Shown: in pieces, positions 3,569 through 35,408 of the stretch
Layout of the letters: each line of letters begins with the position of its first letter
Numbering within the stretch: the stretch's first letter is position 1
Source: an uncultured Lewinella sp.
Lineage (GTDB): Bacteria; Bacteroidota; Bacteroidia; Chitinophagales; Saprospiraceae
Length of the DNA stretch: 36,509 bases
Assembly: GCA_937949535.1 (NCBI GenBank)
Contig: CALEDI010000029.1
Coordinates: 1-36,509 of the forward strand
Direction: 5' to 3'
The notes under the pieces: generated by a model
The model's database searches: none
Told to the model about the DNA's origin: nothing
What the model saw: only the letters and a program-made list of their open reading frames with translations
Made by a program: the position numbers and the translations under genes

Positions 3569-3570
3569 GT

Positions 3571-3632
3571 AGGTTGCAGGTTACAACCTGCAACCTGCAA
3601 CCTGCAACTTGTAACCTGCAACCCGCAACCCG
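3571..3632. repeat. Heptanucleotide repeat in both orientations (AGGTTGC then GCAACCT)
   Basis: aggttgcaggtt-ac-aacctgcaacct palindrome followed by further aacctgc units; fills the gap between the parA stop and the next ATG. Confidence 0.9.
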
Positions 3633-5320: not shown

Positions 5321-6604
5321 TCATTTTTGTGCCGCGTCGGTCATCACCTGCTCCATGATCTTGACGCCTCGTTTGGCCATTGAGGCGAAGTCGTCCATGC
5401 CGTCGTTGGGGAAGTTCTGGCGGGTTCGGTGGATCCAGAACTTATCCGATAGTTCGTGGCCGAAGGTTTGTTCTACGCCTTTTCGGCCCAGCGTCATGCC
5501 CAACATTCCGGCCCACGTGGCGGTTGGGTTGTCTGAATCCCAGCCGCAGAGCGCACCGATTTTGATGGTTTCTTTTAGGTCTCCCTCGCCGTAGAACAGG
5601 CTAATTAGGGAGGCGGCGAAGTTGATTCCGCTGGCGAAGCAGCCATTGCAGTAGAGTTTTTGGGCGGTGATGTTGTAGCCGTCTTGCCCCGCTATTTGGT
5701 AGCGTTGGTACACTTCGTCTCGGCATTGTTCCCACGGTATTCCGGCTTGGTGGCGGGCCTTTACGAAGTCGTACATTTTAGCAGGGTAGCGGTCTTTGCG
5801 GAGGTGGAGTCTTGCTTCGTTAGCCCAGTTTTGCACCTGCGTGCGCGCCACAGCACCCATATTTGCAGCAGCCAATGAATACATTATCACGTAAAACTCA
5901 GCAATTTCAGCCGCTTCTTCCCGCGCCGTAACCCGGATGGGGAGGTGGGCCAGTTCTAGCGCAAGTTTCGGGTTTCCGGGAGCAAAGAGCCCGAAAATCT
6001 CCGTCGTCAACTGAGCATCAATCATGGCGTAGTGCGCGTTGAAGCGCGGGTCTGAGGTGAGGGGTGGCAGGGTATCTGCCCGCATCATATCGAAGGCGCG
6101 TTGGTTGCTCACCCACAGGTAGTTCTCCTCCTCCGGCCGGATGTGTTTAAGCCACCCGTTACGGATTTGTTCGGCAGAAAGGCGCGGGCCGTGTTGCTCC
6201 ATCAGGTGCTGATACATATACTCGATGTCGGTATCGTCATCAGCGCCCCAAACGGTGTCTGGGCCAAGCAGAACGAAGTCGATTATAGGCGAAATGTTGC
6301 TGACCGAGTCTCCGCTCCAGATGTTTGGCAGGTCTGGCCCGCCCCAGTTTTCGCGGGTGTAGAACGCTCCTGTTCGGATGTTTCCGACATCGCCAATCTT
6401 GTCCATTTCCGTAATCAAGCCCGTCCAGTTGGCAATGCACTGCGCAAGCCAAAAGCCTTCAAGTTGGTCTTGGTAAACGGCCCTGTCTGGCGTTGTTTTG
6501 TGTCCCTGTTCATCTAGTGATGTAGCAGTAGATGAGGGCGACTGCGCGCAGGATGCAAGGTGGAGGATGAAGGAGCAGAGTAAGGCGACCGGCAAGCGTT
6601 TCAT
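5321..6604 (-). CDS. ADP-ribosylglycohydrolase family protein with lipoprotein-like signal peptide
   Basis: MKRLPVALLCSFILHLASCAQS signal/lipobox; GDVGNIRTGAFYTRENWG, CGWDSDNPTATWAGMLG motifs. Confidence 0.75.
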   Translation of the reverse strand: MKRLPVALLCSFILHLASCAQSPSSTATSLDEQGHKTTPDRAVYQDQLEGFWLAQCIANWTGLITEMDKIGDVGNIRTGAFYTRENWGGPDLPNIWSGDSVSNISPIIDFVLLGPDTVWGADDDTDIEYMYQHLMEQHGPRLSAEQIRNGWLKHIRPEEENYLWVSNQRAFDMMRADTLPPLTSDPRFNAHYAMIDAQLTTEIFGLFAPGNPKLALELAHLPIRVTAREEAAEIAEFYVIMYSLAAANMGAVARTQVQNWANEARLHLRKDRYPAKMYDFVKARHQAGIPWEQCRDEVYQRYQIAGQDGYNITAQKLYCNGCFASGINFAASLISLFYGEGDLKETIKIGALCGWDSDNPTATWAGMLGMTLGRKGVEQTFGHELSDKFWIHRTRQNFPNDGMDDFASMAKRGVKIMEQVMTDAAQK

Positions 6605-14942: not shown

Positions 14943-14960
14943 TGGCGGCGAAGGTAGTTA

Positions 14961-15073
14961 GTAGGTTGCAAGTTCCAAGTTGCAGGTTGCAAGTTGCAGG
15001 ATGCAGGTTGCCGTGTAGCATGTGTTGCAAGTGTTGCAAGTTGCAGCAGGTTGCTCGGCTCAACCTGCAACCT
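14961..15073. repeat. Heptanucleotide AGGTTGC-type repeat tract with inverted copy at far end
   Basis: gtaggttgcaagttccaagttgcaggttgcaagttgcaggatgcaggttg ... caacctgcaacctcctac; ends at the apbE stop codon. Confidence 0.85.
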
Positions 15074-31584: not shown

Positions 31585-31799
31585 AAGTTTGACTTTAGCA
31601 CCAACGAAGTTTCCCCGTCCGGACGCCCGCAGGTCCCTTGCCCTTATTCGCTGCTTCGCAGCTCGGGCAAGGGACGCTACGGGGTCCTCGCCCACCCTCG
31701 TAGCAGGACCCCGTAGCGTCCAGTGAATCCTGAAGCGAAGCGCAAGGATTTACTGGACCTGCGGGCGTCCGGTTGGTGATTGGTACTAGAATCAAACTT
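31585..31799. repeat. Nested inverted-repeat element predicted to fold as a four-way (cloverleaf) structure
   Basis: 18-bp outer arms CCGGACGCCCGCAGGTCC (31619-31636)/GGACCTGCGGGCGTCCGG (31755-31772) enclosing three further hairpins; flanked by caccaac/gttggtg and aagtttga/tcaaactt. Confidence 0.85.
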
Positions 31800-31808
31800 T
31801 AAAGACCA

Positions 31809-34800
31809 CTAGTTCGCAACGGCCCTTGGTGTCGCCCCCGAAAAGAGCCGGTAAAGTAGCGGCACAACATAAAGGCTGCCCAACGTGCCGACCAGCAAAC
31901 CGCCGATCACGGTAATCGCCAATGGCTGCTGCAACTCCGCCCCGAGGCCGCTCGTGAAAAGCACCGGCGCGAGGGCCAAAATGGTGGTGAGCGATGTCAT
32001 CACGATAGCCCGTAAACGACGGCGGCTGGCTTCCTTGATGGCTGCCGAAAGCGACATCCCCGCCGCCCGCGCCCGCTCAATCATATCTACTTTTATGATC
32101 GCATCATTGACCACGATGCCACCCGTAACCACCATGCCGATGAGGCTGAGGAGGTTCAAACTGCCGCCCGTAAGCCAGAGCGCCAACAACGAACCGACGA
32201 GGCTAACCGGAACCACCAACAGCACCACCAGCGGCAGTCTCACACCCTCGAACTGGGCCGCAAGAATGAGGTAAAGCAGCAGTAAACTGACGAGCAAAAC
32301 ACCGCCCAACTCACCAATCCGGGATTGATCGGTGAGGAACCGCCCCGCCAATTGGCTCGTGAATTCTGGATAGTCGGTTACGATGGTTTCGAGTTGGGCG
32401 ATGTCTTCGGCGGTCGGTGCTCCGGCGAAGACGAGGGCCAAGTATTCGCCCGCACGGTCTGCGGTCAGGACGCGGTAATCGGGCTGTTTGCGGAGGTGGA
32501 GGAGCTGGCGAAGCGGGATTTCATTGCCGTCTTCGTTGGTGACGGTGGCGGCCAGCAGGCGGTCGGTAGACAAGCCGTCGGCACCGGCCAGCAACACCGG
32601 CAGGGCACGGTCGTTGGCGCGCAAACTGGTGACTTCGTTCTCGCTGAAGAGCGTCAGCATCCGGTCGCGCAAACGCGCGGACGCGACGCGGGATGTAGCG
32701 AGCGCAGGATAGTTTATTTGTAGGGAAATCGCCTCATTGCGAGCGGGCGGCGCGGGGAAGAAGCCCTCTTTTTGTAGGCGATCTAGGAGCGGTTGCACGC
32801 GCTCCCAGTCCGGTGTTTCGCGGCCACCAGCGGCCCGAAGGCGAAGTTCGAGGTAGGGCGCGTCGTTGAGGAAAATACGGTCGAAAAGGTTCGCTACGGG
32901 CCGCATCGAAAAGGTAGCGGCGGGATGCTTTTTGCGCTGGTTGGCCAGCCACTCATCGGCAAAACCGGATGCTGGCGCGGCGGGCAGAAAAAACTGCACT
33001 TCGGAGGCGTTGGTCGCTTGGTTTTCCTCGGCTAGGAGGAACTGGTTTTCGCCAATCAGGGCACTGGCTTCTCCTCCAAATTGCGCTTGCCAGTCGTTCA
33101 TCAGGGCGCGGACGCGGGTGCGGTGAACGCTGAGGGGCAGGGCTTCTGACCAGTCGATGTTCAGTTGGTAATCCGAGCGAGAGAGATCCGGGAAGCCTTG
33201 GGTAGGGAGGGCTTTTAAGCTTAGGTAACCCACGGCCAGCCAGGGGAGGAGGAAGAGGAGGAGGTAGAGGGACCGGGGGCGGCGCGGGACCTGGACCTGG
33301 ACCCCGGACCGGCCACGGCCCCCGGCCCGGACCGGCCCCCGCCCCCGGACTTCGTCCGGGGATATCCGAGGGATCGTCGCTACGCGACGGCTCGTGTGGG
33401 AGGCGTCGGAGCCAGATAAGAGCACGCTCAGCATCGGGAGGAGGAAGTAGGCGACGAGTAGGGACGCCGCCAAGGCGAGCGTGACGGCAATGGCCTGGTC
33501 GCGAAAGAGGGCTCCGGCGATGCCACTGAGCAAGACCAAGGGGAGGAAGACGGCAATGGTCGTTAGGGCACTGGAGATCAGGGGGCGGATGACTTCGTTG
33601 GCGGCGGCAGCGGTTTGGGGTACGTTGCCCTCTCCCCCGGCCCTACGCCCCCCAGCCCCCAAGGGGGGAGACATGTTGGAAGTGTTGGAAAGCCCCCCAA
33701 CCCCCAAGGGGGGAGAAACGTTGGAGGTGTCGGCGTATTGGGGTGTTTCTCGGTAACTGGCAATATTGTCGAGCACAATGATCGAGTTGTCGATCATGAG
33801 GCCGAGGCCGAGGATTAGCCCGGCGAGGGAGATGACGTTGATGGATAGGCCCGCTAGGTAGAAGCCGAGAAGGGCTATGAGTAGGGCAATAGGTACGGCT
33901 AGGCCGATGAGTAGTGGCCGCCGCCACTCGCGGAAGAAGGCGAAGAGGACGAGGATAGCGAAGCCCGCTCCGTAGAGAAGGCCGCCGGAGAGGTTGTCTA
34001 TGCTGGCGCGGAGGACGGCCGTTTGGTCGTTGTTGAGCTTGAAGCGGAGTTCGGGGTACTCGCCTTCGAGGTCAGCGATGAGGGTTTGGAGGTTTTCGCG
34101 GAGGTCGAACAGTCTGGCGTCGGCGCGCTTGCGGATGGTGAAGATTACGCCGGGGGCACCGTCGTGGAGGAAGAGACCACGGGGCGGTTCGGCTTCGTAG
34201 GTGACGGTGGCTAGGTCGGAGAGGGGGACGGTGCGCTCGCTACCAGTAAGCCCCCCCCCGGCCCCTTCCCGAGGTGGAGGGGAGACATCTCCGATCCGGA
34301 GATACAAGTTTTCGAGGTCTTCGACGGTGCGGAGGTCTCCGGTGAAGCGAACGGCGTACTGGTAGTGGCCGTCGGCCAACAGGAGGCCGCCGAGCTCTAC
34401 ATTGGCGGCGCGGAGGAGGTTGGCGAGGTCGGCTTCGGTTTTGCCCAAGGCCCGCAGCGCGGCCTGCTTTGGCCGGACGACGATGCGGGGTGTCGCCTGG
34501 CCGGAAAGGTCGGCGAAGGCGACTTCGTTTAGCTGTTCTAGGCGGCGGCGTAGGACGTTTTGGGCTAGGGCGGAGAGGGGAAGAAGGTCCCCGGACTGCG
34601 TCCGGGGAGATCCGAAGGGTAATCGCTCCGCGATAGCTGGCGTTGGAGGCGAGGCAGGAGGGGCAGATGTTGGAGGAGGGGATGCTCGCTGCGCTCGTGA
34701 CCCCACCCCCGGCCCCTCCCCGGGGGGGAGGGGAGGCGTGGGAGGCGTTGGAGACGTTGGAGACGAAGTAGATGTTGGAGATGTGACACCTCCCCCGGCC

Positions 34801-35408
34801 TTGCTCCCCCTTTGGGGGCTGGGGGGCGTAGGGCCGGGGGAGAGGGTACGCAACGTAACACTCAACTGTACCACCGGAATATCACTAACATCAGTCGCCA
34901 GCACCCGGGGCCGTTCTACCTCGCGCGGTAGGCGGTTCATGGCTTGGTCGATCTTTTCGTTTACTTCGATGAAGGCGAGGTCGGGATCGGTGCCGAAGGG
35001 GAAGTCTAGGTAGAGCACGGCGGCTTCCTCGCGGGCGCGGGAGCGGATACCGCTCAGGTTGTTGACTTGGAGGAGGGTATTGCGCAAAGGCGCTACTACG
35101 GCATCTTCCACCGTCCGTGCCGCAGCGTTGGGGTAGCTGACTTGTACGCTTACGCGGGGGATACCCACTTCGGGGAGCAACGACACCGGTAGCTGGCCTG
35201 CGGCCAGCAGGCCGAGGACGATGGCCGCCAAAGTGGTTAGAAGGACGGCGACGGGGCGGTTGAGGAGGTTGGTCAGGATGGCAGCCGAGGGTTTGAAGGA
35301 GTGTTTTTGCTTGAGGCGCAATATACTTTGGGTTTCATCAAAATGCCCAATCCTGCAGAAGTTGCCCGGTGTTCCCGTACTTAATTCAGCACCGAATACT
35401 TTGAGCAT
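31809..35408 (-). CDS. RND-family efflux transporter permease subunit with repeat-derived insertions
   Basis: RPVAVLLTTLAAIVLGLLAAGQLPVSLLPEVGIPRVSVQVSYPNAAARTVEDAV, LIGLAVPIALLIALLGFYLAGLSINVISLAGLILGLGLMIDNSIIVLDNI, GMVVTGGIVVNDAIIKVD. 1199 aa; start codon uncertain. Confidence 0.9.
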   Translation of the reverse strand: MLKVFGAELSTGTPGNFCRIGHFDETQSILRLKQKHSFKPSAAILTNLLNRPVAVLLTTLAAIVLGLLAAGQLPVSLLPEVGIPRVSVQVSYPNAAARTVEDAVVAPLRNTLLQVNNLSGIRSRAREEAAVLYLDFPFGTDPDLAFIEVNEKIDQAMNRLPREVERPRVLATDVSDIPVVQLSVTLRTLSPGPTPPSPQRGSKAGGGVTSPTSTSSPTSPTPPTPPLPPGEGPGVGSRAQRASPPPTSAPPASPPTPAIAERLPFGSPRTQSGDLLPLSALAQNVLRRRLEQLNEVAFADLSGQATPRIVVRPKQAALRALGKTEADLANLLRAANVELGGLLLADGHYQYAVRFTGDLRTVEDLENLYLRIGDVSPPPREGAGGGLTGSERTVPLSDLATVTYEAEPPRGLFLHDGAPGVIFTIRKRADARLFDLRENLQTLIADLEGEYPELRFKLNNDQTAVLRASIDNLSGGLLYGAGFAILVLFAFFREWRRPLLIGLAVPIALLIALLGFYLAGLSINVISLAGLILGLGLMIDNSIIVLDNIASYRETPQYADTSNVSPPLGVGGLSNTSNMSPPLGAGGRRAGGEGNVPQTAAAANEVIRPLISSALTTIAVFLPLVLLSGIAGALFRDQAIAVTLALAASLLVAYFLLPMLSVLLSGSDASHTSRRVATIPRISPDEVRGRGPVRAGGRGRSGVQVQVPRRPRSLYLLLFLLPWLAVGYLSLKALPTQGFPDLSRSDYQLNIDWSEALPLSVHRTRVRALMNDWQAQFGGEASALIGENQFLLAEENQATNASEVQFFLPAAPASGFADEWLANQRKKHPAATFSMRPVANLFDRIFLNDAPYLELRLRAAGGRETPDWERVQPLLDRLQKEGFFPAPPARNEAISLQINYPALATSRVASARLRDRMLTLFSENEVTSLRANDRALPVLLAGADGLSTDRLLAATVTNEDGNEIPLRQLLHLRKQPDYRVLTADRAGEYLALVFAGAPTAEDIAQLETIVTDYPEFTSQLAGRFLTDQSRIGELGGVLLVSLLLLYLILAAQFEGVRLPLVVLLVVPVSLVGSLLALWLTGGSLNLLSLIGMVVTGGIVVNDAIIKVDMIERARAAGMSLSAAIKEASRRRLRAIVMTSLTTILALAPVLFTSGLGAELQQPLAITVIGGLLVGTLGSLYVVPLLYRLFSGATPRAVAN
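33285..33404. repeat. Insertion block D within the RND ORF
   Basis: CCCCGGAC-TTC-GTCCGGGG and CGTCGC-TAC-GCGACG hairpins plus 12-bp direct repeat CCCGGACCGGCC (33303-33314, 33326-33337). Confidence 0.75.
33615..33740. repeat. Insertion block C within the RND ORF (45-bp tandem units plus 41-bp element)
   Basis: gccccccagcccccaaggggggagacatgttgga (33647-33680) and gccccccaacccccaaggggggagaaacgttgga (33692-33725). Confidence 0.8.
34249..34289. repeat. Insertion block B within the RND ORF
   Basis: cccccggccccttcccgaggtggaggggag, about 27/30 matches to 34706-34735. Confidence 0.7.
34588..34846. repeat. Insertion block A within the RND ORF (composite of several modules)
   Basis: Hairpin module, 9-mer-like cgttggaga repeats, CCCCTCCCC/GGGGAGGGG module and 41-bp element in series. 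Confidence 0.8.

Follow-up and report, generated by a model that had tools for sequence, protein, structure and literature searches.

Likely in-frame uptake of dispersed palindromic repeats at four loops of an RND permease gene in Neolewinella

The window analyzed here, a stretch of 36,509 nucleotides from a Neolewinella sp. MAG (335 contigs, 88% complete; the host is a marine bacterium), raises the question of how four extra, repeat-like segments came to lie within a drug-efflux pump gene that encodes an RND permease. The open reading frame (ORF) concerned encodes 1199 aa at 31809..35408 on the minus strand. Based on the Pfam search, the ACR_tran profile matches its product in three separate stretches, and the solved structures that this product resembles are RND pumps; Foldseek matched AcrD, AcrB and CusA chains. 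Both the profile and the fold place it among the RND permeases. RND orthologues of ~1000-1030 aa occur across the family. Approximately 42 aa at the N-terminus of the ORF are also unconserved, and the true start may be located up to ~42 codons downstream, in which case this extra part would be a start-site artefact.

In order to map the additional segments, the ORF was aligned to 13 family-level and five same-genus orthologues. Extra segments were found at aa 189-275, 373-389, 555-598 and 664-714 (together 199 aa), and all four are absent from 13/13 family-level orthologues. These positions agree within a few residues with the four segments that a sequence-only reading of the window had proposed for this 1199-aa ORF, and one outcome that would have refuted it, distant orthologues with the same segments, was not found. 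Residues P, G, S, T and R make up 67% of the blocks and hydrophobic residues 14%, compared to 30% and 39%, respectively, in the RND core; the GC content of the block DNA ranges between 65 and 77%.

Block 1 (34584..34844, minus strand) falls in a loop of the periplasmic porter region and combines an A-type palindrome with tandem 9-nt units of CTCCAACNN and with C2, E and B elements. Its element A core, detected by pattern search (34806..34826, minus), is surrounded by a long palindrome (34784..34848, minus) that folds at -39.8 kcal/mol (z -3.6). Element E (CGAGCGCAGCGAGCATCCCC; 34678..34697, minus) was assigned by repeat comparison and is also present in blocks 1 and 4 of relative G121, while a first copy of element B, identified by its DNA pattern (34589..34634, minus), is read as IAERLPFGSPRTQSGD. 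Block 2 (34242..34292, minus), delimited by the orthologue alignment, is a short C-type palindrome and represents the weakest of the four, because it spans only 17 aa and lies where a few additional residues also occur in orthologues of the genus. Block 3 (33615..33746, minus) contains CTCCAAC units and two A elements, whose cores are antisense to the RND gene (33648..33668, plus, found by pattern search, and 33693..33713, plus, its 88% identical tandem partner). Block 4 (33267..33419, minus) consists of a GGACC/GGCC-rich tandem and a second copy of element B, again found by DNA pattern (33343..33388, minus) and read as RRVATIPRISPDEVRG. For neither B copy was the pattern matched in G121. We take blocks 3 and 4 to occupy the equivalents of the TM4-TM5 and TM6-TM7 loops, an assignment inferred from the order of helices in the model and from what is generally known about AcrB.

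AlphaFold, supplied with an alignment of 19 sequences, predicted an RND fold for this ORF. Values of pLDDT below 50 were obtained at aa 190-273, 384-388, 557-593 and 667-711 as well as at the termini and two short stretches; apart from the latter, the low confidence of the model sits almost exactly over the blocks.

The repeats themselves are dispersed multi-copy DNA. Element B is ~49 bp in length and forms two hairpins, GCTATCGCGTAGCGATTACCCCTCGGATAACCCCGGACGNAGTCCGGGG: a first stem of 5 bp and a second of 8 bp, each closed by a loop of 3 nt, are separated by a linker. Each position of stem 1 pairs in 59 or 60 of 60 copies, and the stem exists in compensatory versions (ATCGC/GCGAT, TCCGC/GCGGA, GTCGC/GCGAC, TTCGC/GCGAA), which indicates that the hairpin is kept beyond sequence alone. 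Searching the whole genome of the window yielded 41 copies of B (reversed-pattern control: 0), 28 copies of B2, a variant with a longer second loop, and 71 copies of element A. In sampled stretches, B copies were located between genes as well as within them. The sequence-only reading, which saw repeats of an otherwise intergenic type in the block DNA, would have failed had the blocks no other copies in the genome; such copies exist, both genic and intergenic.

Distribution across the genus differs between the elements (names of relatives are inferred: G121, N. aurantiaca; G116, N. agarilytica; G124, N. marina; G122, probably N. lacunae). The B pattern had no copies in 19/20 other genus genomes and a single weak copy with three mismatches in G133, which also holds three weaker matches to B2; the exact B pattern was not found in the viral collection searched. 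Element A was detected with 22 copies in N. aurantiaca, 74 in G122, 20 in G132 and 0-4 in each other genome. Since counts come from genome-wide pattern searches and sampled stretches, and part of the sample was picked for holding elements, we do not claim an unbiased rate per genome.

The RND gene is one of many hosts. Based on coding sequence on both sides, hexamer score and a Pfam check, in-frame B or B2 copies were identified in at least 12 genes of the sampled stretches, most of them with Pfam domains. They include genes for D-Ala-D-Ala ligase (L134), a MutS domain V ATPase (L137), SbcD (L106), methylmalonyl-CoA mutase (L136), prolyl oligopeptidase (L104), a UvrD-type helicase/nuclease (L252), FG-GAP/UnbV proteins (L249, L250) and an alpha-2-macroglobulin-like protein (L254), whereas A-type copies occur in MutS (L153) and isoleucyl-tRNA synthetase (L101). 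The inserts lie in a genome of at least 4 Mb, and D-Ala-D-Ala ligase and isoleucyl-tRNA synthetase genes are among their hosts. The reading frame was retained in every decorated gene examined.

Six in-frame B/B2 sites are empty or near-empty in a sister species. In N. aurantiaca, ~9 aa stand at the MutS-like site (~68 aa here), ~10 aa in D-Ala-D-Ala ligase (~84), ~11 aa in SbcD (~93), ~1 aa in methylmalonyl-CoA mutase (~97) and ~10 aa in prolyl oligopeptidase (~44), while the site of the L157 protein comprises 3 aa in N. agarilytica and 89 aa here. Judged from these alignments, the near-empty counterparts, which exist in named sister strains, mark recent in-frame gains. Comparing the sampled genes with two relative contigs yielded no more than 18 orthologue pairs, which did not suffice for estimating a rate.

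Further peculiarities were observed in decorated genes of this genome. The isoleucyl-tRNA synthetase ORF (L101:541-4359, minus) contains a DUF559 endonuclease-like domain at aa 632-739, a whole-domain insertion, and the corresponding ORF of N. aurantiaca is also long (1307 aa). At L134:67-4209 (minus), a 1381-aa ORF combines PASTA domains with two modules of D-Ala-D-Ala ligase. Among the most decorated genes in the sample is a 1294-aa DEAD-box helicase-like ORF (L161:1878-5759, plus), which holds several PPLGAGG-coding A elements and C-type copies.

Beyond what the sequence-only reading had suggested, different elements occupy the same loops in different species. The RND orthologues of N. aurantiaca and N. 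agarilytica (84% and 75% identical to the RND protein of the window) have inserts at blocks 1, 3 and 4 whose sequence is largely different from that of the window; inserts are shorter in G134, and there is little in G122 and N. marina. In block 3 of N. aurantiaca, a CCCCTCTCCCGAGGAGAGGGG palindrome stands at the position of the window's two A elements, and its block 1 has E and C2 in common with the window but lacks B. Blocks 3 and 4 of N. agarilytica contain element D in opposite orientations. We had considered element D as specific to N. agarilytica, which was ruled out by its presence in G000, G121, G126 and G135. Since these loops hold other repeats in the sister species, they are permissive sites, as the sequence-only reading had supposed for loops of the transporter, and they were hit repeatedly; the orthologue comparison shows that these RND loops were used more than once and independently. 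Because the elements at one and the same loop vary between species, each decorated gene maps the insertion tolerance of its protein, and such genes make it possible to follow how disordered stretches of protein emerge from non-coding repeats.

Taken together, we consider it highly probable that the gene of an intact RND permease acquired palindromic repeats of dispersed type at four loops without loss of frame, and that they are tolerated there as translated linkers. Two of these loops would be located in the periplasmic porter region and two, by analogy with AcrB, between TM4 and TM5 and between TM6 and TM7. The elements would have spread within Neolewinella genomes, some of them only in this species, and copies would survive where the frame stays open and where they land in surface loops without ordered structure; insertions at other places within genes would presumably disappear. 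Most likely, the additional residues are translated and form a disordered linker that the protein tolerates, although translation, actual transposition and a near-neutral effect on transport are inferred in the absence of expression data. Of the coding-tolerated mobile repeat system proposed by the sequence-only reading, the coding-tolerated and multi-copy nature is supported by our results, whereas mobility is still only inferred: we identified no enzyme that would mobilise the repeats, and the Y1_Tnp genes of this genome are unlinked to the elements.

A strong strand bias, likewise beyond the sequence-only reading, accompanies the insertions. B and B2 are co-oriented with the host gene in 13/13 in-gene clusters, in 11/12 cases between co-directional genes and in 5/5 cases at contig ends, resulting in an overall ratio of 29:1 in the direction of transcription (p about 6e-8). 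Orientation flips with gene direction inside one contig (L136, L137), so that it follows transcription and not a contig-wide strand. Intergenic B copies mostly have a co-directed gene on their 3' side, with one convergent case, while element A inside genes (14 vs 5) obeys no such strict orientation rule. Stop codons are not the cause of the bias in B2, as far as its consensus can tell: all three antisense frames are open, compared to one open sense frame and another open in some copies. Sense B tandem arrays were also observed directly upstream of or into gene starts (L130:7096-8184, minus; L135:13095-13542; L136:97-569), and these could serve as leader RNA or N-terminal extensions.

This orientation, together with the placement inside or upstream of genes and the conserved stems, could indicate that inserts are kept for a function, either as useful linker peptides or as sense RNA hairpins regulating the mRNA. 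We regard this as improbable, however, because the host proteins are unrelated, sister species lack the same inserts or have others, and the frame of B is not fixed. With regard to insertion of dispersed repeats, the strand bias offers a direct way of studying their movement. One speculative option, to which we give only limited credence, is that mobilisation of B depends on a strand-specific process linked to transcription, e.g. insertion into the displaced strand of transcribed genes or via an RNA copy, unlike REP/RAYT transposition. If true, this would explain the near-universal co-orientation with genes and would make coding genes a regular habitat of B rather than an accident.

Local growth of repeats has to be weighed as well. 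B forms tandem arrays with periods of 63-104 bp, in-gene spacings are constant within an array, and the block tandems (9-nt CTCCAAC units, the GGACC/GGCC stretch of block 4) could have grown by slippage. An origin of the blocks by slippage and local recombination alone, with seed repeats expanding in place and no transposition between loci, is nevertheless very unlikely, since it cannot put one 49-bp two-hairpin element at dozens of unlinked loci where sister species have none. Spacing within arrays also bears on the frame. Multiples of three within an open ORF are partly circular as evidence; the B2 test escapes this circularity, because its copies were found by DNA pattern alone. All 12 B2 neighbour spacings are multiples of three (p about 2e-6 if independent), although only nine arrays contribute, whereas B neighbour spacings are mixed and not all multiples of three.

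Even less support remains for the blocks being old intrinsic low-complexity loops that drift fast and resemble repeats by composition only. Same-genus orthologues are indeed variable at these loops, but family-level orthologues have no such segments, and exact multi-copy elements are recovered by pattern with zero control matches. In addition, IAERLPFGSPRTQSGD and RRVATIPRISPDEVRG are two frames of one B DNA in equal orientation within the RND gene, and the species-restricted B copies already largely refute this explanation.

The assembly comprises 335 contigs, several of which begin in element arrays, and misjoined repeats or a decaying pseudogene might therefore be suspected. Such an artefact or pseudogene is scarcely credible given the frame kept in every decorated gene and the comparable inserts at the same loops in the strain genomes of N. 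aurantiaca and N. agarilytica. Divergence is also dominated by third positions: outside the blocks, the RND core differs from N. aurantiaca by 0.10/0.04/0.39 at codon positions 1/2/3, which indicates purifying selection on the protein despite its inserts. Removal of the inserts at the RNA or protein level, conceivable in view of strong hairpins and the important enzymes hit, can practically be dismissed, as inserts keep frame without stops, which would be unneeded if they were removed, and the Rfam search of the window returned tRNA only, with no intron or ribozyme match.

The best-known palindromic inserts in frame are those of the obligate intracellular lineage Rickettsia, whose Rickettsia palindromic elements (RPE) were reportedly described by Ogata et al. 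in 2000. Such repeats lie in frame within protein genes and, like the elements studied here, are dispersed, lineage-restricted palindromes found between genes and in conserved genes, to which they add extra peptides (PMC2229807). Both insertion in frame into phylogenetically conserved genes and additional copies between genes were observed in our data. RPE are, however, 105-146 bp long and pair both ends by terminal inverted repeats, whereas B has ~49 bp and two adjacent hairpins without end-to-end pairing in folding; B does not form an RPE-length stem-loop with terminal inverted repeats, and only the block 1 A palindrome is a long stem. RPE-4 and RPE-6 bear a CGTC tag (PMC3733652), which B lacks. 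Furthermore, the present host is related to the Saprospirales, and in its genome of at least 4 Mb several families are merged into composite blocks. B works like an RPE without being shown to be one.

Intragenic REPs with GTAG/CGTC tags are known, the CGTC type also from Bacteroidetes (PMC3733652), and B resembles REPs and RAYT-mobilised REPINs as a short multi-copy hairpin occurring in clusters and partly within genes. Among 45 B copies, CGTC was found in three and GTAG in five upstream flanks, and in two and none downstream, respectively; neither tag is conserved in B. GTAG-type REPs flank a RAYT gene, but none of the five Y1_Tnp genes in the genome has B within 1.5 kb, although a RAYT gene could have been missed at 88% completeness. 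REPs are also mostly located downstream of coding regions, whereas B lies upstream of or inside genes in sense direction. Bacterial MITEs with open frames, namely NEMIS/Correia, ERIC and YPAL (PMC2229807), are likewise small non-autonomous repeats forming in-frame ORF fusions. B differs from these by its shorter length and the lack of terminal inverted repeats joining its ends. A target-site duplication is not recognisable, because the junction loops are too diverged to align. Searches of the open-access literature returned no publication that describes elements of this sort from Neolewinella or Lewinella; the kind of insertion is already known, while the elements, the reuse of sites and the strand bias appear to be new.

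Other repeats share the window with these elements. The most abundant repeat in the sample is the dispersed family TTTGCACCTGCGGCCGCGCCCAAA, with 118 matches in 0.79 Mb at up to four mismatches, part of them by chance; it is located at 5829, 14307, 21441, 27206 and 31412 in the window and also in sampled G000 stretches. Degenerate 7-bp tandem repeats (CAGGTTG/CAACCTG) at 2418-2487, 3570-3630 and 14955-15046 are mostly intergenic or at ORF starts and recur across the genome. Directly 3' of the RND gene, a large intergenic inverted repeat spans 31617-31772 (TCCGGACGCCCGCAGGTCC ... GGACCTGCGGGCGTCCGG), and its arm GACCTGCGGGCGTCCGG occurs 13 times in the sample, always between genes.
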